Shown in pieces: positions 10,917 through 63,200 of a DNA stretch of 64,000 nucleotides (positions within the stretch are counted from its first letter, which is position 1; each line of letters starts with the position of its first letter). Below the pieces are notes generated by a model that was not told where the DNA came from, did no database searches, and saw nothing but the letters and a program-made list of their open reading frames with translations. Source of the DNA: a virus; IMG/VR virus record IMGVR_UViG_3300028891_000081, positions 62,001 through 126,000 of that record, one strand, 5' to 3'. The position numbers were made by a program, and so were the translations under genes.

Positions 10917-13456
10917 GGCTTGCAGTGACAGCTGTTGATCAGAGGATAGAGCATGGTTCATCGGTTATCTACATATTCTGTAGAGACAGAAGCTCCAGGA
11001 GATACATTATAAGAGACGACAGCTTTGAACCCTATTTCTATATGAGAAGGGAGGACTATGAACATGTTAAATGGAGACCAGAGGAGCTGGAGAAGATAAA
11101 GAGGATAGAACATCAGGGCCCCAATGGAGAAGTATTCAGGCTGTTAGATGCTTCAGCTCCTGGAGTCAAGATAATAACCAAGCTGCCAAAGTACGTTAGG
11201 GAGCTAAAGGTAGCATTGTATAATAGACGTAGTAAACGGTATCCCAGGGGGATAGAAAGCTATGAAGCTGACATCAAGTTTCCATACAGGTATGTAATAG
11301 ACAAGGGGATTACTGACGGTGTAGAGGTAGATGACAAATATCTGGAATGGTGTCTTAAACATCCTGAGCTGACTAAGGGATACATTGTATGGTCGGACAA
11401 ATACTGTAGGGCATGTACTCTGGATTATGAGCCTCCATTAAGGAAGCTTTTTGTAGACATTGAGTGTTACGGTAAGGTACCCAAGGACAAAGCTAAAGTT
11501 CCGGTCATAATCATAGGATGCTACGATAGCTTTGAGGGGGAATACCATGTGTTTTACTGGAGAAAGGATAAGAGCTCGTATTCCTCAAGGAATATCCATT
11601 ACTATGAAAATGAGAGAGACATGTTCTCAGCTTTCCTAGTATATCTGAGAGATATAGATCCAGACCTTATTATTTCGTTTACTAAGTTTGACATGGCATA
11701 CCTTATCAAACGTATGAGGAAGCTCAAGCTGGATGTGAGGATGCTTTCCTCCATTGGAACAGTCTCTACATGGTCAGCTGAAAAGATAAGCTTAGGGGGA
11801 TGCCATTACCTTGACCTTAACGAGATATACTCCATAGTTGTAGGAGGAAGGAAGTTCCAGACTCTGGATGCTATTAGTAGGAAGGAGCTTGGATATGGTA
11901 AAAGGAGACTGTATACTGACATTGACAAGGTATGGGACAGTTCATATCTCGATGTTATATACTACAACCTTAGAGACGTACTCTTAATCAAGAACCTGGA
12001 CAAGGAGCTTGACCTTATAGAATATGTTGACACTGTTAGGAGACTCTCCGGTCTGGACTTCAATGATGCCATGTACCCCTCAAGGGTGGCTGACATCTCC
12101 TATCTAAGGTTGCTTCATGGAAAGATAGCTCTCAGAACCAGACCTATAGAGAAGGTTAGGAGGTCGTATTCTGGAGCTACAGTGTTTGAGGCTAAGAGAG
12201 GGATATACAACAGTGTATGCTTGATGGACTTCAGCTCAATGTATGTGAACATAATAAAGAGCTTCAACATTGGCTGGAACACATTCGATGAGGTAGCTGG
12301 AGAAATAGAGGTAACACCGGAATGGAAATACCTTAGACCTGAGGTAGAGAAGAGCTGGACTGTAGAGATACTTGACAAGCTAGCTCCCCTACTTGAAGAA
12401 AACAAAAGACAGATAGAGAAAGCTAAGAAGGAAAGGGACTTTGACATGGTGGAGAGACTAAAGAGGAGAAGGCTAGCTCTCAAGTCCATTGTCCATGGTT
12501 CATACGGCTTCTATGGTTTCAGTGGTAATGTAGAAAAGAAGTTCCCAGCTGCCAGATTGTATTCCTATAAGATAGCTGAGAGCATCACTACCATTGGTAG
12601 AACATTGCTCCTGAAGATCAAGGAAATAATAGAGAGCTTCGGGTATACAGTGATATTTGGAGACACAGACTCAATAGCTTTTGTACTTAAAACCAAGGAC
12701 TATAAAGAGGAGTCTGCAAGGATAAGGGACATGATCCATCGGGAGCTCCATAAGTTCATATCAGAGAAGTGGAGCATTGATCCGTCCAGCTTTAGACTGG
12801 ACATAGAGGACTACTTCAAGAGGATAATAATATTCACAAAGAAACGTTATGCTGGACTAACAGTGGATGGCAGGAAAATATACAAGGGGATAGAGCTGGT
12901 AAGAAGGGATCAGTCTGAGCTTACTGAGATAGTACAACGTAACGTACTTGACATGGTGTTTAATGACAGTGCCATAGAGGATATCAAGAAGTATGTGATA
13001 AGAGAGATAGAGATGATGAGTAAGTATCCACTGGAGAAAATAGCTATCACTGGCATCCTTAGACAACCAAGGGACTCCTATGACAAGGCTATTGTAACTC
13101 TGAAAGCTTTTGAGTTTGCAAGACAAGTACTGGGTCTAGACATTGAAGAAGGTGAGAGGTTCTTTTATGTGTACATCAAACCATACAGATACAAACGGAT
13201 AGTTCTTAACCTGACTGTAGAGAAGGGGTCTAAGAGACATATAAAGAAAGAAATATTTTCTGACGTTGCTGGTTTCCTTCAAGCTTCAGATCTTGAAAGA
13301 GCTGAATATCCAATAGAGATAGACAGGGACAGGATGTTAGTAAGGACTATAAAGAACAAAGTAGAAGATATATTGGAGATGATAGGTACGTCATGGAAGG
13401 AAGTATTCAATTCGACATATACACAGAGAAAGTCCAGACTAGACTTTTACTTGTAG
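10913..13456 (+). CDS. polB: family B DNA polymerase
   Basis: Replicative family B DNA polymerase, 847 aa. The 3'-5' exonuclease motifs are VDIECYG (D182, E184), SFTKFDMAYL near 250 (Exo II) and YYNLRDVL near 360 (Exo III). Polymerase motif A is DFSSMYVNII (D439), motif B is KSIVHGSYG (K524) and motif C is FGDTDS (D584, D586); KKRYAG near 645 follows. Motif B is unusual, with His-Gly where Asn-Ser is typical. No intein. It follows an overlapping 70-aa gene and sits with RadA, ParB-like and nuclease genes, forming a self-supplied replication module. Contains a dispersed palindrome copy at 11640-11656. Confidence 0.95.
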   Translation: MRLAVTAVDQRIEHGSSVIYIFCRDRSSRRYIIRDDSFEPYFYMRREDYEHVKWRPEELEKIKRIEHQGPNGEVFRLLDASAPGVKIITKLPKYVRELKVALYNRRSKRYPRGIESYEADIKFPYRYVIDKGITDGVEVDDKYLEWCLKHPELTKGYIVWSDKYCRACTLDYEPPLRKLFVDIECYGKVPKDKAKVPVIIIGCYDSFEGEYHVFYWRKDKSSYSSRNIHYYENERDMFSAFLVYLRDIDPDLIISFTKFDMAYLIKRMRKLKLDVRMLSSIGTVSTWSAEKISLGGCHYLDLNEIYSIVVGGRKFQTLDAISRKELGYGKRRLYTDIDKVWDSSYLDVIYYNLRDVLLIKNLDKELDLIEYVDTVRRLSGLDFNDAMYPSRVADISYLRLLHGKIALRTRPIEKVRRSYSGATVFEAKRGIYNSVCLMDFSSMYVNIIKSFNIGWNTFDEVAGEIEVTPEWKYLRPEVEKSWTVEILDKLAPLLEENKRQIEKAKKERDFDMVERLKRRRLALKSIVHGSYGFYGFSGNVEKKFPAARLYSYKIAESITTIGRTLLLKIKEIIESFGYTVIFGDTDSIAFVLKTKDYKEESARIRDMIHRELHKFISEKWSIDPSSFRLDIEDYFKRIIIFTKKRYAGLTVDGRKIYKGIELVRRDQSELTEIVQRNVLDMVFNDSAIEDIKKYVIREIEMMSKYPLEKIAITGILRQPRDSYDKAIVTLKAFEFARQVLGLDIEEGERFFYVYIKPYRYKRIVLNLTVEKGSKRHIKKEIFSDVAGFLQASDLERAEYPIEIDRDRMLVRTIKNKVEDILEMIGTSWKEVFNSTYTQRKSRLDFYL
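11640..11656 (+). repeat. dispersed palindrome TATATCYGAGAGATATA
   Basis: Exact copy (Y=T) inside polB, read as VYLRDID. Confidence 0.85.
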
Positions 13457-13466
13457 AGGGATGGGA

Positions 13467-13682
13467 ATGAATAACTGGAGAAACAGAACCTATAGAGAGA
13501 TAATCATCTACAACATAGAAGAGCTGGAAAAGAGGAGAGCTAGAACCAAGGACAGAGAAGAGAAGGGAAGGATAAACAGGACCATACAAGCTCTTCTCTC
13601 TGACTTAAGTGACTATGAGAGAACGTCCGGAACAATGTTAGCTTCTCTGGACGATATCTTAAGATACTTCTTTGAGGGGTGA
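13467..13682 (+). CDS. small charged helical protein, 71 aa
   Basis: Short, Arg/Glu-rich, largely helical protein (EELEKRRARTKDREEKGRINR) with no recognised family. ATG 13467 lies 8 bp after GAGGG; an ATG at 13461 is also possible. It ends by overlapping the ribosome-binding site (GAGGGGTGA) of the next zinc-ribbon gene. Confidence 0.5.
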   Translation: MNNWRNRTYREIIIYNIEELEKRRARTKDREEKGRINRTIQALLSDLSDYERTSGTMLASLDDILRYFFEG

Positions 13683-13686
13683 TAGT

Positions 13687-13872
13687 ATGCCTAAACCAGT
13701 AGAGAAAAATGGTAAGTATTACTGTCCCTATTGTCATGTTGAGCTTAGCTCCTCAGCTGTAAGATACTACAAGGTTGTTAAGGGAGCATACAAAGGAGCT
13801 ACAGAGTATAAAGAGACAACTTGGGAATGTAAGGAATGTGGGTATAGCTACTGGATAAAGGAAGAGATATAG
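13687..13872 (+). CDS. small zinc-ribbon protein, 61 aa
   Basis: A single zinc ribbon: YYCPYCHVEL near residue 12 and WECKECGYSYW near 48, separated by a strand-rich segment, like a TFIIS/transposase-type ribbon. ATG 13687 follows GAGGGGTGATAGT. Probably binds nucleic acid or RNA polymerase; not provable here. Confidence 0.6.
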   Translation: MPKPVEKNGKYYCPYCHVELSSSAVRYYKVVKGAYKGATEYKETTWECKECGYSYWIKEEI

Positions 13873-13902
13873 CTCCACTCTGAGCAAGCCAGAGGTGGGG
13901 AT

Positions 13903-14184
13903 ATGAAGACCAGCAAGACACGTATTATATGCCCACTATGTAAGAAAAACAACCTTGAGATAATGTTTGAAAAGCATAGAAGATTGAGTACTAAGATACC
14001 ATGGCTGGTATGTTCAAGATGTGGCTTTGTAACCACCACACTTAACCTTTCTGAAAAGGCACTTGAGAGGGCTGCAATACGGGCTCTGATAAACTACTTT
14101 GAGAAAGGTCATAAAAACTTAAGCCTTGTAGACCCAGATGTACTGAAGAGAGCTAAAGAAGTGTACATTATGGAGGTGTTGTAA
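13903..14184 (+). CDS. zinc-ribbon protein, 93 aa
   Basis: N-terminal zinc ribbon (ICPLCKKN and VCSRCGFVT) followed by a helical part. The C-terminal codons (ATGGAGGTGTTGTAA) contain the GGAGGTG ribosome-binding site of the RNase H gene, which explains the terminal MEVL. GTGGGG-type ribosome-binding site precedes its ATG. No specific family. Confidence 0.58.
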   Translation: MKTSKTRIICPLCKKNNLEIMFEKHRRLSTKIPWLVCSRCGFVTTTLNLSEKALERAAIRALINYFEKGHKNLSLVDPDVLKRAKEVYIMEVL

Positions 14185-14186
14185 GC

Positions 14187-14555
14187 TTGAAGATTTACTG
14201 TGACGGTTCTGGAGGATATAGACCAAAGTTTGGATATTATGTAGAGGACAATGAGAAGGTGAGGATAGAATATAGAACCAAATTTATGACTGGCAATGAA
14301 GCTGAATACAGAGCTGTACTCCTGGCTCTAAAGTATGTGATGAAAGAAGGGAACGACAAGGAGATAGAAATATTGTCTGACAGTAAGGTAGTAATCAATC
14401 AGCTAAACCATCTATGGCACATCAAGTCTGGAAAGCTTAGGAGTCTAGCTGTTGAGGTGTGGTCTATAATAGAAACCTTAAAATCAAGAGGATACTCTAT
14501 TCTTCTAACATGGGTACCAAGAAGTGAAAACAAGATGGGTAAAGCTCTTGGTTGA
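14187..14555 (+). CDS. RNase H-like protein
   Basis: RNase HI-fold protein, 122 aa. The N-terminal strand KIYCDGSGGYRP supplies the first Asp, TGNEAEYRAVLLAL the Glu, and ILSDSKVVINQL the second Asp. The end, ILLTWVPRSENKMGKALG, aligns with the last motif W-V-x-R-x-x-N-x-x-A-D, but the fourth acidic residue is replaced by Lys and the protein stops soon after. Activity on RNA-DNA hybrids (primer removal) is likely but may be reduced. TTG start 8 bp after GGAGGTG. Confidence 0.8.
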   Translation: MKIYCDGSGGYRPKFGYYVEDNEKVRIEYRTKFMTGNEAEYRAVLLALKYVMKEGNDKEIEILSDSKVVINQLNHLWHIKSGKLRSLAVEVWSIIETLKSRGYSILLTWVPRSENKMGKALG

Positions 14556-14568
14556 GGGAGGTGTAAAG

Positions 14569-16605
14569 TTGGATAGAGAGATAGAAGTATTCAAGAAGAA
14601 GTACTGGAACAAGATAAGGAAATGTAAGAACGTACATGGCTTTTCAGGTATAATATGGCAAAGAGAGAAGGGAGGAAAGCTAATACCTGGTACTAGAGTT
14701 ATAAGAATATATGTCACTAAGAAAGAGTCAATATCGTCTTTATCCAAGAAGGATATAGTTCCTAGAGTTCTAAGCTTAGGTAATGATCTGATAGAGACAG
14801 ATATAGTAGTTAAACCTCGTATGAAATATATGGATCAGCTGGAGATAAAAGATGACCCAGCTGTCCATAGGAAGAAATTTAGGCCTTATCTTGCTGGTGT
14901 GTCTTGTACATCCATAAAGTCGACAGCTTGCACACTGAACTGGTATGCCAGAAAGGTTAAGAGAAGGACTGTAGGAGGATTACCAGTATACCAGATTTAT
15001 CTGATGCTGAACAATCATTGTTATCCAGGATATACTGAGGTTCTAACTAAAGATGGCTTTAAAAGATGGGACGAAATAAATGGTACTGAAAGGTTTGCCT
15101 CGTTGGCTCCTGATGGAAGCTTAGAGTATCTGCAGCCTATTCGTTTCCATAAGATCTACTATAGAGGACCAATGAAATTAGTCAAATCTAAGGTGTTTGA
15201 GGTTTCAATGACACCAGGGAACACAGTCTATTTTGCAAAAGCTCCGTTCCATAGCCGGAAAGCTGGTGACTTTAAATTAGGTAAGATTGAAGAAATTGAA
15301 GAGAGATTAGCAGAAGGGAAAACAACTACTGTAAGGTTCAAGAATATTGCCAAATGGAAAGGTGTAGATAATGATATGTTTAGTGAAGAGCTCATTGAGC
15401 TCCTAGGTTGGTATCTATCAGAGGGTTCAGCATGTGAAAATTCCATAGGTCAAAAAATAGTCAGCATTAGACAAAGAGAAAATAGATACTATGAGAGAAT
15501 TTACAAGTGTATGAAAAGCATGGAAGCAAGAACATGGAGATGTAAATCAGCAATTGTATCTAATAATCCATCCTTCCATCAGCTTTTGAAAGATATCAGG
15601 CTTTATGGTGTACATTCTAAAGAGAAGTTTATTCCTACAACAATCAAAGAGCTTCCACCTTCTAAGCTCAAGATATTGCTCGACACTCTAAGGAACGGAG
15701 ATGGTGATAGCTATGGTAGATTTAATACTTCATCCAGACGCTTAGCAAATGATGTTTGTGAGGTAGCATTAAAGCTTGGAATCCCCACTTTGATTAAACG
15801 AGAATCTAGGATAACCAACTTCTCAAAGGGAAAAGAGAGTGTGCTGTACAGAGTTAGATTCCTAAAGACAATAGACCCACTGGTAAGTTCAATAACAGAG
15901 TATCCTTATTCAGGCTTTGTGTATGATGTGACTTTGCCCATGAATCATACTTTATTTATACGAGAAAAAGGATGTGGAGTATGGGCAGGAAACTGTGGAA
16001 GTAGGGAAAATAAAGCTAAGAAGGGAGAGCTATGGATACAACCCAGCCCGTACGATGGAGGTAAAGAGAGTGATGCCATTGCCAAGTATGTCTACAATGT
16101 ACCAACCAAGTTTACTTCATACTCTTCCTTATACAAGAGGATACTGTTCAAGCTTTACAAGCTGCTTTTTGCAGCTACACACTTCAGGACTTATCAGGCT
16201 GTTAACCATGCTGATATTTGCTTTGGTATACCTCTAGATCCAGATGAAATCTCATACTCCATTCTTGGAATAGAGGGAAGAATAGTAGGTAAGGGAGAAC
16301 ATAAACGAGGTATAGAAGTCTACAAGAGTGGGAGAACTACTGGGGTTACCAGTGGACCTATAGAAGATCCCAGCTGGAACGGTTATGTCCAGGGAAGTAG
16401 AGGTCTAGCCTATTACGAGGATGTAGTACTGTGTAGGGTCAAATGTGCTGGAGGAGACAGTGGTTCCCCAGTAGTAAGCAAGGATGGAATAGGAAACCTA
16501 CGATATCATGGAGCTCTGTTTGCAGGTAGTGATGAAGGAGACATGCTCTACTGTAAATGGGAGTACATAGAGAAGGAAGGAAGGGTAGAAATAGTCACAT
16601 ACTGA
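14569..16605 (+). CDS. trypsin-like serine protease interrupted by an intein
   Basis: A trypsin-fold peptidase (about 353 aa after splicing) hosting a 325-aa intein. Flanks: VYQIYLMLNNH ends the N-extein with the catalytic His; after the intein come CGSRENKAKKGELWIQPS, NHADICFG (catalytic Asp) and AGGDSGSPVV (catalytic Ser), with GRTTGVTSGPI between. The TTG at 14569, 6 bp after GAGGGAGGTG, is chosen over a GTG at 14524 that would overlap RNase H. No signal peptide is visible, so it acts in the cell, perhaps on virion or host proteins. It lies two genes before the portal. Confidence 0.83.
   Translation: MDREIEVFKKKYWNKIRKCKNVHGFSGIIWQREKGGKLIPGTRVIRIYVTKKESISSLSKKDIVPRVLSLGNDLIETDIVVKPRMKYMDQLEIKDDPAVHRKKFRPYLAGVSCTSIKSTACTLNWYARKVKRRTVGGLPVYQIYLMLNNHCYPGYTEVLTKDGFKRWDEINGTERFASLAPDGSLEYLQPIRFHKIYYRGPMKLVKSKVFEVSMTPGNTVYFAKAPFHSRKAGDFKLGKIEEIEERLAEGKTTTVRFKNIAKWKGVDNDMFSEELIELLGWYLSEGSACENSIGQKIVSIRQRENRYYERIYKCMKSMEARTWRCKSAIVSNNPSFHQLLKDIRLYGVHSKEKFIPTTIKELPPSKLKILLDTLRNGDGDSYGRFNTSSRRLANDVCEVALKLGIPTLIKRESRITNFSKGKESVLYRVRFLKTIDPLVSSITEYPYSGFVYDVTLPMNHTLFIREKGCGVWAGNCGSRENKAKKGELWIQPSPYDGGKESDAIAKYVYNVPTKFTSYSSLYKRILFKLYKLLFAATHFRTYQAVNHADICFGIPLDPDEISYSILGIEGRIVGKGEHKRGIEVYKSGRTTGVTSGPIEDPSWNGYVQGSRGLAYYEDVVLCRVKCAGGDSGSPVVSKDGIGNLRYHGALFAGSDEGDMLYCKWEYIEKEGRVEIVTY
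15019..15993 (+). other. intein with LAGLIDADG homing endonuclease
   Basis: 325-residue intein starting at Cys (CYPGYTEVLTKDGFKRW) and ending GVWAGN, followed by a Cys +1 extein residue. The terminal Asn is present but the penultimate residue is Gly rather than the usual His. LAGLIDADG motifs are ELLGWYLSEGSA and ILLDTLRNGDGDS. The splice junction directly follows the catalytic His of the protease. Confidence 0.85.
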
Positions 16606-16622: not shown

Positions 16623-16654
16623 TGGTAAGATAAAATGTTAGAGAGGTGAAAAGC

Positions 16655-16864
16655 TTGTCTGAAGAAGAGATTGTAGAGAAGACAAAAGCTGATATGATTG
16701 TGGAGGCAATAAGCAGAACCAGTGCCCCTCTAGTGATATTCCTCATCATCTTCATGGTGCTAGCCTTCCTGAGAGGCATGGGCAGTATTTCTGAGGACAC
16801 ATTTGTCCAGCTTGTACTGTCGGATGCTATAGTAACTGGGATACTGAAGCTATCGAAAGAGTGA
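16655..16864 (+). CDS. small membrane protein with one transmembrane segment
   Basis: 69 residues: a charged N-terminus (SEEEIVEKTKADMIV), one hydrophobic span (APLVIFLIIFMVLAFL) at about residues 24-39, then an acidic/helical tail. TTG 16655 sits 6 bp after GAGAGGTGA; a GTG at 16646 is part of that signal and less likely. Placed directly before the portal, it could be a holin or a virion-associated membrane peptide; neither is proven. Confidence 0.55.
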   Translation: MSEEEIVEKTKADMIVEAISRTSAPLVIFLIIFMVLAFLRGMGSISEDTFVQLVLSDAIVTGILKLSKE

Positions 16865-16875
16865 GGTAGAGAGAA

Positions 16876-18276
16876 ATGAGGATAATCCGTAGAAGAGCTC
16901 CTCAACGTCGTACTTCAACAGAGGAGCTCTCTATGTCATACTCTGTCCCCATGAAGACCAGAGCTAAAATGTGGGCCAGTCTGGAGGAGAGGATAAAGTC
17001 TACTGTGTCAAGCAAACAGCTTGAACAACTATTATACTCTGATGGACTGACGATACGGGAAGTGTATGATTATGTGGACTTTGTGGTAGCTCCAGGATTC
17101 TATTTCAAGGGTAAACAAGAGCTCATTGACATATGTGAGGAGTGGTGTGACACTGTAAGGCTGAAACGTATACTTGAGGAGGTTATAAAGGACATATTTG
17201 TAGGAGGTTCAGGAAATGCATGGGTTGAGCTCGGATACACTGAGGATGGAAGGGACATAGCTAGCTTAAGGATACTAAACCCCAACTACATGGATTATAT
17301 CAGGGACAGCTCGAACAATGTGAAGCTTGATGAGTACGGAGACCCCGTAGGCTATGTTAAAAAGAGAACTGGAACACATGGTGCAGAAATAATGTGGACA
17401 AGGGACAAGATCATAGTGGCTGGTGAAGAAGTATGGAAACGTCAGAGAGCTGACGAGGATGGAAGGGACAGGATAGCCCACTTCAAGCTATTCAGTATAG
17501 GTGGTTCATACCTTGGGATGACTCCCCTAGCAAGCTGCTATAAACAGGCTCTTATCAGGCTTAACCTGGAAGACAATGTTGGTGAGTCTGGATTCAGGGC
17601 TGGAGGTGTCATAGGATATGTTGATGTGGAAGGCATTGGAGAAGTACCAACAAAGAAGCTAAAAGAGCTAGCTAGGGACTTACAAAATGTAACTACAAGG
17701 ACCATCTTTGTTTTCCCAAGCTATGTCAAGATAGAGAGGTTCCCAACCCCTGATCTTAGAGACAGGACAGACCTCATAATGTACTTTGCTTCTGTCCAGA
17801 GCCTTGGTATGGGGTTCCCAGTTACTAGACACTTTATACCTCTCTCCAGAGTGACAGCTAGAGCCAGTGAGAGCATGGAGGTAGACTTTGAGCAGAGAAT
17901 AATGGCCATGCAGGACAGACTGGCTGAACAGGTGAGAGAGAAGCTACTGTTCAGGCTGTTGAAGGCCAGGGGTATGGTCAAGACCCTTAAGGAGGTACCC
18001 AAGATAGTCTTCAGGACAAGGGTACCACATATTCTAGAGAACAAGATAAACCTGATTTCCAGACTTGGAAGACGGGATCTTATTAGAAGAGATCCAGAGC
18101 TTGAGAAACAGCTAAGGCAAGAACTAGGACTGCCCACCAAGTATCTGGACAGGGAGCTTAAGAAGTGGGAAGCTGATTCTAACCTAGTACCTTCTTCTCC
18201 TAAATCGAAGTCCGATGTTGATATAGACACCATAGCTGAAGAGGTAAGTGAAAGGGTATCTGAAGAACTGTCTTAG
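16876..18276 (+). CDS. portal protein
   Basis: Portal-like protein, 466 aa, forming the dodecameric DNA channel at a capsid vertex. Features consistent with the phage portal fold are the N-terminal wing (SDGLTIREVYDYVDFVVAPGF), the strand GSGNAWVELGY near 114, ILNPNYMDYIRD near 133, the stem-like helical part ARASESMEVDFEQRIMAMQDRLAEQVREKL (about 331-360) and a charged C-terminus. The length is typical. It is far from the capsid genes and on the opposite strand, which is unusual for tailed viruses. The family call rests on pattern recognition, not alignment. Confidence 0.75.
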   Translation: MRIIRRRAPQRRTSTEELSMSYSVPMKTRAKMWASLEERIKSTVSSKQLEQLLYSDGLTIREVYDYVDFVVAPGFYFKGKQELIDICEEWCDTVRLKRILEEVIKDIFVGGSGNAWVELGYTEDGRDIASLRILNPNYMDYIRDSSNNVKLDEYGDPVGYVKKRTGTHGAEIMWTRDKIIVAGEEVWKRQRADEDGRDRIAHFKLFSIGGSYLGMTPLASCYKQALIRLNLEDNVGESGFRAGGVIGYVDVEGIGEVPTKKLKELARDLQNVTTRTIFVFPSYVKIERFPTPDLRDRTDLIMYFASVQSLGMGFPVTRHFIPLSRVTARASESMEVDFEQRIMAMQDRLAEQVREKLLFRLLKARGMVKTLKEVPKIVFRTRVPHILENKINLISRLGRRDLIRRDPELEKQLRQELGLPTKYLDRELKKWEADSNLVPSSPKSKSDVDIDTIAEEVSERVSEELS

Positions 18277-57120: not shown

Positions 57121-60100
57121 CTATTTCCTCTTACTCCTGATTTGTTCTCCTTCCCATGTATCAAGCTTCTTGTCTCTAATAAATCTTATAGCTTGTTCAT
57201 GGGTCCACTTGGATGAGTCAAATATTATGTAGGCTACTCTAGCTCCATGTATCTTTCCTGGACGAGGATAAAGGCCTATCCCTATGTCTACTCCTTCAGG
57301 TATGTCTAGCTCAGGAAGGTATAGCTTGGTCTTTTCACTTGGTTCTACTCTGGTAAACTTTCTTAGGTCATAAATATGGACTATGAAGTAGTTCCATCCT
57401 CTCTTCTGCTCTATCTTGAATGGTTCATATGGTTTACCTTCTCTTGGATCTCCTTCTTTACCAAATATCTCATACATCTTCTCAAATATAGACAGAGGTT
57501 TAGGTAGCTTGGATTTCATGAACTGCCATAGACCATCTGCTTTCCTAGCTATGTAGTATCCCTTAAGCTTCTTTCCATTGATGTTAAAGGACATGAATCT
57601 AGGACTATCTTCTATTATCTCTATGCTTCCATGATCTATAGTCTCAGCTATGGACCATTTACCATAAGCTTTCATTCTGGTACCAGTTTTCTTTACCTTC
57701 AACCATTCAAGGTCACTGCATTCCTTGAGTCTAGCTGGGTATGGAACCTCAAGCTTCTTTAAATCGTCCACACCTTTAGCTTCCCATATGTTAAACTCCT
57801 TTAGGTAGTCCCATTCTGGAAGCTTGAATCTAAGGTCCAGGTGATATTCCTTGGACGTTTCAGGCCAGTAGTGCTTGTCAAGAACAAACACTCCCTGGGC
57901 CATGCTGACCTGGGCCGATAGCTTTTCAAATATGTATACATCAGCTCCCTTCTCTTCTTGCTTCAGCTGATATTTCCCTTTCAGACGTTTACCCTTAAAG
58001 TCTAGCTCTATCACTTCTTCTCCATCTTCAGTTCTTGTAGTGTAGCTTACGGTTCCACTGTCTATTATGACATACTGGCCAACCAGCTCTTTATTTGGGT
58101 TAACAGGGGGTGTGTTAGGTTCAGTCTCACCTTGATAGTCCAGCCATTTCCTGGAAGTTCTTGGATATTCATAAGCTGCCATTATCTCATCCTTTAGTGG
58201 ATATCCATCCAACAGGAATGTCCTTACTTTTCCTTTACCCTTGTCATCCAGGAAGAGGAACCATCTCATCTGAGGCATTTGTCTTCCAGTCTTAGCCCTA
58301 GGCCCCATCCAGCTAGCTAGACCCAATGTAAACCTGACAGTGGTAAGTTCAGATAGTTCACCTCTAAGGTAAAGCTCCCATCTCTCAAACTCTTTAGGCC
58401 AGTTCTTCTTAGCCCATTCTTTCGGGAATGGATACTTGATGTTTTGAGGAGGCTTCCATTTATGCTCTATAGCTCTTTTGCTTAATGCATAAGGCTTCTG
58501 ATCTTTTGGTATCATAAATCTCCACATACGTTCATATTCTCCAGGTATAGGCTTCTTAGTCTTAGGGTCTATCTTCTTAACCTTAATGGCTCTTAGGACT
58601 ATTCTGGTCCAGTCTTTGAAGTACTTGTTGTCTTTAATGAAATATTCATGGAAGTATGGCTTTTGAGCTCCAGTTATTAGTAAGCCTTTAGTAAGAATCT
58701 TAAACTCACCTGGAGCTTCTTCTCCAGCACCTACCTCTCCAGGTTCTACTTTACCTTCTACTTTTAGCCACTGTAAAGGCTGGCGAGCTAGCTCTTCCAT
58801 AGTAAGACTGGATAGTTCTTCCTCTGTCTTCCATCTAACATAAACTATGCCATTCTCTACCTTTATTAGCTCATACTTCCATTCATTACAGAATGGATTA
58901 ACACACTTAGTCTCAGCTCTAAACCCTTTTCCTATATTCTCTAGGAACTTTTGAGGAGTATGGGGATCATCTCTGGAACCTCCGACAATACTATTATGGC
59001 AAACTACCAAGCCAAGACCACAGGCAAAGTTATGAAGAGGCTCAAGTGAGAGGTCATATACATACCCTTCAAAATCTATCTCTCCAATTTTACGTTCTGC
59101 TTTGTTTAGATGATAATGGTCCACTAAAAGAATATTGTAGATATAATGCCTACTCTTGGGATCTACACTTTTTTTCACAGTGAAGTTACTACCAAACAAT
59201 CCAAGCAGGAAACATACTTGAATAGCTAGCTCCTCCGAGCTGGTTGAAAATGACTTCCATTTATCACACCCATCTCCCTCCCAAAGAGACTTCCATAGTA
59301 CCTTTAGATAGTCCTTCTTTAGAGCTAGAACGTCTGGAGGAATTCGTTTCTCTAGAGAACTTGCTCCAACATTGTTCTTCAAGTAGTAATAGAGGGTTTT
59401 ATTGGACATTCCTAGAGTATACGTTCCATTTGAGTCTGGTCCTGATATCCAGGATGTAATCCCTAGAGAATCAGAGATAGACTGTTGAACTCTCTTAAGG
59501 AAGTCAAGATTATTATTACCAATTTGAACTAGATAGCTTCCATCAGTTTTCTTATGAACACATCCCTCTGCAATAAAAGCTCCAAGGAAATATAAGAAAG
59601 CTTTTAGCTGCTTACCTCTCAGCTCAATTGGTAAAGGTATAAAGCTTCTTCTTGCTTGTACTTTATCACCATTCTGAAATAGACCTCGGGCATGGAGCTT
59701 GATAGAGTCTCCTCTTGGAGAATAAGAGATGTTTCTGATACCAAGGATCTCAGGGTTGGATGAAGCCTTAGCTGGAGTACACTCCTGAGAATAGACAGAG
59801 TGGTTTGGAGTGACTTTTATTACACCCCACTTTTGATCAAGCTCTAAGATCTTTCCTTTATATCTATGTCTGACTATTGCTGTAATTGGAACCCAGTATC
59901 CTATACCTCCCTTGAAAGCTAGAGCTTTATAGTAAGATGGTCTAACCATCTCATAGCCATTTATCTTTTCTATATTTTTGAATCTTGAAAATAGTTCCTC
60001 AAGCGTTGGAGCTTCTATGCCTTTCGAGGACCAGACTAGCACTCTCTCTCTGGGATGTACTGACCAGCCTTCTAAAAAGCCATTTACTTTAAATCTAAAG

Positions 60101-60246
60101 TCTACATGTTGAGAATCTCCAATATAGTGAGCTTGCATTACAAATGGTTTGGGTTCTTTTACATATTCCATATACTTAGCTGTCAGTTCCCTAGCTATAT
60201 ATTCAGGAACAGCTAGCTCATCTAACATCCATTTTCTAATCTTCAT
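57121..60246 (-). CDS. LigD-type 3'-phosphoesterase-like protein with repeated domains and an intein
   Basis: About 1041 aa (684 after splicing). Residues about 35-61 (FVMQAHYIGDSQHVDFRFKVNGFLEGW in pieces) match the first half of the LigD phosphoesterase (PE) domain, H-x(6)-H-x-D-F-R. The intein follows, then SIVGGSRDDPHTPQ. Far downstream, EYHLDLRFKLP and HGSIEIIEDSPRFMSFNI ... KKLKGYYIARKADG ... WQFMKSK form another PE-like unit, and ELDFKGKRLKGKYQLKQ a further C-terminal-half match. Bacterial and archaeal PE domains trim 3' phosphates and ribonucleotides before ligation. Adjacent to the ligase gene, which it overlaps. ATG 60246 follows GGAG; 60255 is alternative. Confidence 0.7.
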   Translation of the reverse strand: MKIRKWMLDELAVPEYIARELTAKYMEYVKEPKPFVMQAHYIGDSQHVDFRFKVNGFLEGWSVHPRERVLVWSSKGIEAPTLEELFSRFKNIEKINGYEMVRPSYYKALAFKGGIGYWVPITAIVRHRYKGKILELDQKWGVIKVTPNHSVYSQECTPAKASSNPEILGIRNISYSPRGDSIKLHARGLFQNGDKVQARRSFIPLPIELRGKQLKAFLYFLGAFIAEGCVHKKTDGSYLVQIGNNNLDFLKRVQQSISDSLGITSWISGPDSNGTYTLGMSNKTLYYYLKNNVGASSLEKRIPPDVLALKKDYLKVLWKSLWEGDGCDKWKSFSTSSEELAIQVCFLLGLFGSNFTVKKSVDPKSRHYIYNILLVDHYHLNKAERKIGEIDFEGYVYDLSLEPLHNFACGLGLVVCHNSIVGGSRDDPHTPQKFLENIGKGFRAETKCVNPFCNEWKYELIKVENGIVYVRWKTEEELSSLTMEELARQPLQWLKVEGKVEPGEVGAGEEAPGEFKILTKGLLITGAQKPYFHEYFIKDNKYFKDWTRIVLRAIKVKKIDPKTKKPIPGEYERMWRFMIPKDQKPYALSKRAIEHKWKPPQNIKYPFPKEWAKKNWPKEFERWELYLRGELSELTTVRFTLGLASWMGPRAKTGRQMPQMRWFLFLDDKGKGKVRTFLLDGYPLKDEIMAAYEYPRTSRKWLDYQGETEPNTPPVNPNKELVGQYVIIDSGTVSYTTRTEDGEEVIELDFKGKRLKGKYQLKQEEKGADVYIFEKLSAQVSMAQGVFVLDKHYWPETSKEYHLDLRFKLPEWDYLKEFNIWEAKGVDDLKKLEVPYPARLKECSDLEWLKVKKTGTRMKAYGKWSIAETIDHGSIEIIEDSPRFMSFNINGKKLKGYYIARKADGLWQFMKSKLPKPLSIFEKMYEIFGKEGDPREGKPYEPFKIEQKRGWNYFIVHIYDLRKFTRVEPSEKTKLYLPELDIPEGVDIGIGLYPRPGKIHGARVAYIIFDSSKWTHEQAIRFIRDKKLDTWEGEQIRSKRK
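58993..60063 (-). other. intein with LAGLIDADG homing endonuclease
   Basis: 357-residue intein from Ser (SVHPRERVLVWSSKGIEA) to CHN, with Ser as the +1 residue. Block B is TPNHSVYSQ, the endonuclease motifs are YFLGAFIAEGCV and LWKSLWEGDGCD, block F is EGYVYDLSLEPLHNF. It splits the PE domain within the motif equivalent to S-W-A-V-P of LigD, right before the segment G-W|S-I-V-G-G. Confidence 0.88.
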
Positions 60247-63200
60247 ACTCTTCATCTCCTACTACTATAATGTTAGATTCACCATCCAGATTAGATAGCT
60301 TTCCTCTCTTGTAAGTTTTAAACCCATAGTAATAATCTTTTAGGAATACACATCTTCTGATATTAGCTAATGGGCAAGCTACCGGGAACCTAAGGTGTTC
60401 AATCTTCAAGATAGTAAGTTCATGGTACCTTGGCTTACCAAATATCTTCTTTAGGGGACATATCTCTGGGTATTCACTGAACTCACAGATAGGCAGCTTA
60501 ACCACAATAGTCTCTTCAAGTGTCTCAGTAAGCTTGGCTGGTCTTGTACCAAGCTTAGCTATTCTCTCTACAGTAGTAAGTGTGTCTGGGTCTTTTTTGT
60601 CTGATCTCTTTTCTTTGAAGTAAGGGAACATCCAGGTATAGAAATACTTGCCTTCTTTACTCTCATATCTCCTTATCCTGATAGGCATGACTGTTATGAT
60701 GTCACCTCTCTTACACTTGACGTTAGTAGCATAAGTTCTACCTATGATGGCATAGTGTTTTCCCTTGTACTCTACCACCTTGTTCTTAGGAAAGTCATCA
60801 ACCTTCTCTTCTGGGATAAGATATACTGAGATATACATGTAGCTCCCTAGGGGTTCTCCAGTCTCTTTACGTTTCTTTTCTATTACATCCCATACCATGA
60901 CATCTATCTCTTTAAGGTTCTTGAGCTTACAATTATGTAGTACTATATTGCCAGATAAGAAAGACTCCTCTCCTTCCACTTCAATATCATATACCCAGTC
61001 TTTCTTATCAGTATAGACTCTTTTAGCTTCTATTCTATAGGAAGTTATTGGCCGTTTTAACCTTCTAATAATAAAGGAATTTCTCTTCCTAGTCTTTCTC
61101 CATACCACACTGACTGTCTCGTTTCTATGAAGCAAGATAGCATACATTCTACCAGCTAAGGATGGATCTGAAGTAATTATATCATCTGAGAACTTATGAC
61201 ATCTATCTCCATCTCTATAGCCATTCCATAATGCATTAAACGAGGATTCTGGCAAGCTTCCTATAAACCAGGGTATAGTCTTATCATCATTTCTATCTAA
61301 GAAATGTCTAGATAGCCAATCACAGAAAGGCTTATCCCATACTATATAGATATTGATTCCGTTATACTGATATCTCTTCCCTTTAACACCTAAAAGCTTA
61401 TCAGCTAGGTCAGCATAGTATTCAAAGACTTTTGGATCTTTTTGAGAGAATGTTAGTTCTCCTCTCTTATAGCTCTTGCATCTATTATTTCCTAAGCTTC
61501 CCTCAGCTAACCAAAAACCAATAAATTTCCAGAAATCATCTGTACACTTAATAATTTTCTTATATCCATGCCACTCTAGCTCAAGACGCTTGGGGTATGG
61601 TTCTTCTGGAAGGCTAATTCTTATAGGGACTCCCAGCTTATTGTTAATATTTTCAGCTCTTTCCCATCCCTCTCTAGTCATAACTCTGTGATCTCCTGTT
61701 AACCTCACTTTTATACCTCCTGGGTTTTTGCTTCTGACATCATAAAGCTTCTCTTCACTACCAACCAAACGCTTCAATATTCTTAGCACTCTATGTAATT
61801 TACCATCTTTTGCAAATACTAGGTCTCCAACTTTAAGGTTACATACCTTCTTGAAACCTTCCTCTGTAAGAATATAGCTTCCTCCAGTGATGCACATCTC
61901 GTCACTTCTGTTTTCTCCCTTATACTTTACTGGGTACTTCATGGTAGCTGCTTTGGCTACTACACCCTCTGAACCAGGAGCTCTTCTCATCTTTTCCACA
62001 GCTCTTAAGAATTCTCCAGGTGTATCTGTAAATATACTTCTTACCAAGTCCAGATAACGAGCATCTCTGGGAACCACTTTCTTTAACAGCTTGAACCTTT
62101 CAGAATATGGCAAGTCTACTACAGGCTTACCATCCAGGTACATAATATCGTAGAAAACATACACTATTCTGTCCTCAAGCTCTGGAGGAACCTTTCCGAC
62201 AGTTATAGCTGCAGTGTCTTCTCTTTCCATAAGATCCATCTGTCTCTTGAGCTTGGCAGACTTAACCACCTTGTTAGGAGGTATCTCAAAAGCTACCATC
62301 TCTCCATCAAGTATGCAGCTCTCACAATTGAGCTTATCCATGATTTCTTTTACTATGTTTGGAAACTGGCTAGCTCTGTCTCTCTGTCTGTCCTCTGTGA
62401 TTATCTTAACCAGCTTCTTTGCCTTGTCTACATGCAGCTGCATACGTCTTCCATCTACTTTCTCTTGTACGAATATCCCATCCTCTAAGTATTTTGATGC
62501 CCACTCCCTGTACATTTCCTCTGGATCCCAGAATTCAAACTTACCAAAGCCACTACGTGGTTTTACACCTATCATAGGCTTTCCTACTTTGATTTCTTTA
62601 GCTAGCTTCTCAAACCTGTATGGACCAAAGTCTCTGATCATAAGATTGTCAGGTAGCTTAAAGAAGCCATATCTATAGACGTTTAGGCTGTATCCTATGT
62701 ATGGACCAAATGGATCAAAGACTGGGTGTATCCTCCTAGCTAACCATTCAGGCTTCAGGTTTTTTACAGCTTCAACTATCCTAGGATCAGGCAGCTGTCT
62801 AAACAGTAAATCTATGTCATGATCTTTTGGTATCCTTCCCTCATTCACTATTCTTCCAGTAAGATAGGCCCCATAAGGTTCTCCCTTAACTATCAAATGA
62901 GGAGGTAAAGCTTTCAGTACATCTTCCAGCTTGATGTATTCTCCCTCTGGCTCAGGATAGATAGCTTCTGATTCTTCAGCTTCAGAAAAGAACAAGCCCT
63001 TAGGAGTTGGATATTCAGAAACCTCAAGCTCTACAGCTTTAGTAAGGATATTGTCACCTTTTACATCATCCCACAAGCCTCTCTTGTAGAGCTCAATTCC
63101 TACAAATACTCCAGCATCATGGATGTTCTCTGGTATCGTTTCTGGTGAACTAGCACTTTCATTTGCCTTGTCAACCAGGAACTCCCATAGCTTGATAAGC

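Follow-up and report, generated by a model that had tools for sequence, protein, structure and literature searches.

An intein directly after the putative catalytic histidine of a viral NAL1-like serine protease

The gene for a putative NAL1-like serine protease of a virus is interrupted, directly after the codon of the predicted catalytic His, by an intein bearing a LAGLIDADG endonuclease, in the stretch of 64,000 nucleotides analyzed here (the window; bases 62001–126000 of the full viral record of 128,201 bases). The position of the intein after the catalytic His of a trypsin-fold protease had been proposed in an initial annotation and is confirmed by the agreement of an empty site in a sister virus, homology, and fold matches; the flanking sequences (YLMLNNH and CGSR), the length of 325 residues, the Gly-Asn end, and the Cys residues at both junctions were also found as described there. 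Its interpretation of the protease as a zymogen switched on by protein splicing is partly supported. Three features had gone unnoticed there: the loss of the block-B His, the covariation of the +1 Cys with Cys136, and the occurrence of related inteins at active-site motifs of papain-type proteases. The element is probably a mobile class-1-type intein that homed into the protease gene and persists by homing, and the evidence favours an active-site parasite over a purpose-built switch. The features are collected in Table 1.

Table 1. Features of the interrupted protease gene and of other loci in the window. Fractions refer to the 77 intein relatives aligned from the best 80 of 380 candidates and a few others; a slash marks an insertion point.
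Feature	Position	Strand	Basis or remark
Shine-Dalgarno-like GGGAGGTG before the TTG start	14556..14563	+	sequence
N-extein, NAL1-like serine protease, from the TTG start to predicted catalytic His165	14569..15018	+	sequence, homology
Cys136 codon (motif STACTL), chymotrypsin Cys42 position	14929..14931	+	covaries with the +1 Cys
Intein of 325 aa (Cys1–Asn325), a Hint domain in which a LAGLIDADG endonuclease is nested	15019..15993	+	sequence, alignment, model
Block B, TPGN	15211..15222	+	TPxH in relatives, His in 76/77
First LAGLIDADG motif, LLGWYLSEG	15400..15426	+	acidic Glu, 66/77 relatives alike
Second LAGLIDADG motif, LLDTLRNGDG	15676..15705	+	Asp, 75/77 relatives alike
Block F, VYDVTLPMNH, His kept	15919..15948	+	alignment with relatives
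Block G, GVWAGN, penultimate Gly	15976..15993	+	Gly in 75/77 relatives
C-extein	15994..16602	+	+1 Cys at 15994-15996; stop at 16603-16605
Asp564 codon	16213-16215	+	alignment with homologues
Ser646 codon (in GGDSGSP)	16459-16461	+	alignment with homologues
Small protein, 72 aa, hydrophobic segment	16646..16864	+	kept beside the protease in the sister virus
Portal protein, gene after the small ORF	16876..18276	+	synteny with the intein-free sister virus
Third intein, LigD 3'-phosphoesterase-like protein (EGW/SIVGG), HN end	58993..60063	-	sister site empty (G001)
Second intein, ATP-dependent DNA ligase (NRSDEM/CKLK), canonical HN end	60932..61894	-	sister site empty (G001)

The frame of the protease is open over 693 codons from a GTG at 14524, from which all residues are numbered here (the His165 codon being 15016–15018), to the stop ending at 16605, and this single open frame ruled out a programmed frameshift or an intron. 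The TTG at 14569 is a plausible start, based on the Shine-Dalgarno-like sequence just upstream and on its alignment with the ATG start in the sister virus. Because the protease is split by the intein, Pfam scores of the uninterrupted precursor sequence are poor. The protease is a divergent member of its family, with a Trypsin_2 score of 12.7 bits, under the curated cut-off. The joined exteins matched PHROG 20754 ‘protease’ (E 1e-22), which is also matched by a putative serine protease of Aeropyrum coil-shaped virus; the latter (L043, 3577–4554) stops soon past the catalytic Ser and is shorter than its relatives. A profile built from eight homologues retrieved the structures of rice NAL1 (E 3e-15) followed by streptogrisins, one from 25 viral homologues retrieved NAL1 again (E 2e-15), and a Foldseek search with the precursor model gave NAL1 first (E 1e-8) and then bacterial chymotrypsin-fold proteases. 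His165, Asp564, and Ser646 show no variation when the precursor is aligned with 22 intein-free viral homologues, the triad being in order and accompanied by the GDSG motif; a Thr at the column of the catalytic Asp in L021 proved to be a misalignment, which was gone in this better alignment. Judging from sequence and model, joining of the exteins yields a NAL1-like serine protease of the chymotrypsin fold with putative proteolytic activity. His165 is the catalytic His by homology, aligning with that of the family; the outcome named in the initial annotation as refuting, a non-catalytic His by structure comparison, did not arise. For the precursor model, only homologues of the exteins were used, and the result had block pLDDT values of mostly 75 to 97 across the protease parts and low confidence for the intein part. 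The separation of the His from the Asp and Ser until splicing, another part of the initial proposal, is one along the chain; in the model, the two extein halves still adopt the protease fold.

A syntenic virus carries an intein-free allele (L027) at the corresponding position. It contains the exact empty site, YVGLNNHCGSLENKAKIGDEWLQPSPYDGG, with GLNNH/CGSLENKAKIGDEWLQPSPYDGG in place of the MLNNH/intein/CGSRENKAKKGELWIQPSPYDGG of the window, so that the uninterrupted GLNNH/CGS fixes both boundaries of the intein. The virus carrying L027 is 110 kb in length with the same gene order (protease, small ORF, portal, and NrdD), and its portal protein and NrdD are 54% and 66% identical to those of the window virus; L027 itself shares 56% identity with the joined exteins. 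A scan of viral contigs with the pattern QP(G/S)PYDGG recovered about 30 intein-free homologues of the protease. Across viral contigs, phages, and plasmids, an intein at this protease site was found in one genome only, with the sister virus and every homologue recovered being free of it. Two scans of genome contigs with extein alignments gave no confirmed relatives, and scans of viral contigs for the DNA polymerase and portal gave no matches.

The intein corresponds to precursor residues 166–490 and possesses the nucleophiles of a class 1 intein (Cys1 and Cys+1) and the terminal Asn325. Its structure model (mean pLDDT, 92) matched the TliVMA intein (Foldseek E 5e-15) and also PhoVMA, PI-SceI, and PI-PfuI, with a match of the nuclease fold to I-DmoI, and full-length similarity to inteins in other proteins reached an E value of 1e-26 in G004. 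These full-length matches, together with the matches of the model to solved inteins, argue against a chance resemblance. Judging from its motifs, the LAGLIDADG homing endonuclease is putatively active, and the intein is predicted to splice.

For comparison within the clade, aligned relatives served as the query of a scan, in which the best 80 of 380 candidates and a few others yielded 77 aligned relatives. The TxxH motif usual in block B is absent from the protease intein, which has Asn in place of the His, and besides this intein the block-B His is missing in just one of the 77 relatives (best 80 of 380 plus a few). The penultimate His, usual but not universal, is replaced by Gly, and position F4 in block F is occupied by Asp, as in four of the 77 relatives of the same best-80-of-380 set, 72 of which have Cys. 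Replacement of the block-B His could result in slow or faulty splicing. This residue normally drives the first splicing step; inteins that still splice without it are described, so that its absence is not excluding, and bulky residues at the −1 position rescue a block-B mutant of the engineered M86 intein (PMC6333167). The Gly-Asn end, which had been suspected of slowing the final step, is no special slowing feature, because 75 of the 77 relatives (again from the best 80 of 380 and a few others) have the same Gly, and the Gly-Asn RDF intein of a mycobacteriophage splices completely and fast and was slowed by replacement of the Gly with His (PMC5050341). The −1 residue of the protease intein is the catalytic His of the host protein.

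A Cys directly following the catalytic His occurs only in the subfamily of the window protein. This residue covaries perfectly with Cys136; both are present in 5 of 31 aligned sequences and neither in the remaining 26, where Gly and Val or Ile occupy the two positions, and none has one Cys alone. The two positions are presumably those of the Cys42–Cys58 loop disulfide in S1-family chymotrypsin, and the covariation suggests a disulfide-type pair. A second conserved pair, equivalent to the C191–C220 disulfide, was rejected because L042, L036, and L032 lack Cys316. As an intein requires Cys, Ser, or Thr at the +1 position, the His-Cys bond was available as an intein target and a His-Val bond was not; the site could accept the intein because its +1 residue is the structural His-loop cysteine (chymotrypsin Cys58 position) found in this subfamily only. 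The suggestion that splicing may respond to redox through the Cys residues at both junctions is weak as put, Cys1 being common to the relatives aligned, and Cys136 provides a sharper partner for the +1 Cys.

Six intein sites were compared between the window and the sister virus, and none is shared, each being filled in one virus and empty in the other. The protease, the ligase, and a LigD-type phosphoesterase (LigD-PE) are interrupted only in the window, and RadA, an MBL-fold nuclease, and a second site of LigD-PE only in the sister. This pattern fits homing parasites with rapid turnover; the turnover, like the boundaries, the empty sister site, and the families of host and intein, can be read from the sequences themselves. 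The intein in the sister MBL-fold nuclease (L065, 1818–5045) is located between the first His and SHPDH (VSH/SHPDH), has a Gly-Asn end, and is a full-length relative (32%) of the protease intein, both following an active-site His. Papain-type proteases (L111, L116, and L144; Pfam Peptidase_C1) carry inteins of the clade at QGxLG/SC or NSWG/, and phage inteins have been reported in active centres of host proteins in mycobacteriophages (PMC5050341). Since catalytic motifs are a habit of the clade's inteins, an active-site position by itself is no proof of regulation.

Several further observations concern the other inteins. L104 and L123 are perhaps interrupted like the papain-type proteases, having the NSWG motif and no Pfam hit. 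A viral AAA+ protein that appears LonB-like by eye (L062; contig of G004, 11867–15790) contains three inteins in one open frame, and the intein insert in a RadA-like gene (L052, 958–2850) resembles, by eye, a Vsr-type endonuclease and not LAGLIDADG. The ligase frame starts at 60236, runs beyond the window on the right, and reaches about 127050 of G000 (1614 codons open in the full record); it also holds an MBL-fold nuclease. This nuclease-ligase fusion, followed by the LigD-type phosphoesterase, resembles a viral module for end joining or repair.

It is proposed that the LAGLIDADG-bearing intein homed into the most conserved stretch of the protease gene, between the codon of the catalytic His and that of the Cys after it. 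In the precursor, an N–S acyl shift at Cys1, transfer to the host Cys+1, and cyclization of Asn325 would most likely proceed in succession, and excision would rejoin the His and Cys into a protease of 353 residues with no trace of the intein. As the insertion adjoins the catalytic His, the unspliced protease is probably inactive. This inactivity would be a side effect of the intein position, and the element would be kept by homing, not by a viral need for a switch.

The adjacency to the catalytic His has also been taken to indicate a regulated zymogen, in which the virus would retain the intein for the timing of the protease by delayed or redox-dependent splicing. In its most plausible form, a disulfide between the +1 Cys and Cys136 would block transesterification until reduced, consistent with their covariation (both in five of five sequences, either alone in none of 26), with the loss of the block-B His, and with the conditional splicing documented in other inteins (PMC5790916, PMC6195587). 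However, the sister virus and all homologues found have no intein at this site, and a timing switch is not needed; the Gly-Asn end is general in the clade, the intein in which it was tested was not slow, and turnover is the same at five other sites. We therefore regard a regulated zymogen as quite unlikely. It is very unlikely that the intein has decayed, with splicing lost or reduced to cleavage only and the protease dead or split, even though the two usual assisting histidines (block B and penultimate) are both absent and the former is missing in just one of 77 other relatives (best 80 of 380 plus a few): the 693-codon frame is wholly open, the triad is intact, and Cys1, Asn325, Cys+1, the Asp and His of block F, and both nuclease motifs are kept, while splicing inteins without the block-B His are described and a bulky −1 residue substitutes for it in the engineered case (PMC6333167).

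Compatible with a homing parasite is the possibility that the catalytic His at −1 replaces the block-B His, either by its bulk or as a base. The block-B His is lost in an intein that has a His at −1, and large −1 residues have the rescuing effect in the M86 mutant (PMC6333167), but a −1 His is found in just 3 of 73 other clade inteins (from the best 80 of 380 candidates and a few others), and the Asp at F4 could be the compensation instead; such assistance by the extein is rather unlikely. It appears highly improbable that, in addition to this replacement, the His-loop cysteine at +1 with its partner Cys136 subjects splicing to gating by active-site folding and redox. If true, the intein would constitute a zymogen switch built from host residues and set by the active site that it interrupts.

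The window encodes a portal and a capsid-like protein of a tailed virus. Its host is probably an archaeon, as suggested by a RadA/Rad51-type recombinase, C2H2 zinc fingers, and the matches of a family B polymerase, the top phage matches of which, among those listed, are haloarchaeal viruses. Small genes with a membrane segment or lipoprotein-like character recur adjoining viral NAL1-like proteases (16646–16864 of the window, L036, L045, L017, L024, and L039), which may point to a function in lysis or at the membrane. A role of the protease in head maturation was not accepted as settled; the portal gene adjoins, but the capsid-like gene is 23 kb off on the opposite strand, and a protease homologue is also present in Aeropyrum coil-shaped virus, the family of which is, to our knowledge, without a head of such kind.

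Among known systems, the penultimate-Gly phage inteins (RDF and others, PMC5050341) are likewise viral class 1 inteins with a Gly-Asn end, a homing endonuclease, and an active-centre position, and the protease intein differs from them by the lack of the block-B His, the Asp at F4, and the chymotrypsin-fold host. The inteins of the Tko CDC21-1 group, as cited in PMC6333167, share the absence of the block-B His and a bulky −1 residue; their host protein is a different one, and the protease intein has its host's catalytic His at −1 and lacks the penultimate His as well. The chloroplast ClpP intein of Chlamydomonas eugametos (Wang and Liu 1997), as far as cited in PMC5050341, resides in a serine protease and has an unusual penultimate residue, but ClpP differs from the window protease in fold and family. 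Other NAL1-like proteases (rice NAL1, 7y77 and 8hau; Aeropyrum coil-shaped virus 25-326) agree with the window protease in fold, N-terminal domain, triad, and the N-x-H and GDSG motifs; those examined are without an intein, and the window subfamily adds the Cys42/Cys58-type pair. The papain-type viral proteases have a related intein in the active-site motif but are cysteine proteases.

No report of an intein in a trypsin-fold protease was found in the literature searched, and, as far as this literature shows, such a protease is a new host class for inteins, here with an unusual splicing centre. The finding adds a case of an intein interrupting a protease beside a catalytic residue, as inteins of the same clade do in papain-type proteases. 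An intein that has naturally lost the block-B His and follows a catalytic His allows the participation of host residues in splicing to be tested. Because two related viruses naturally provide an interrupted and an uninterrupted allele, the question of parasite versus regulator is testable as well.
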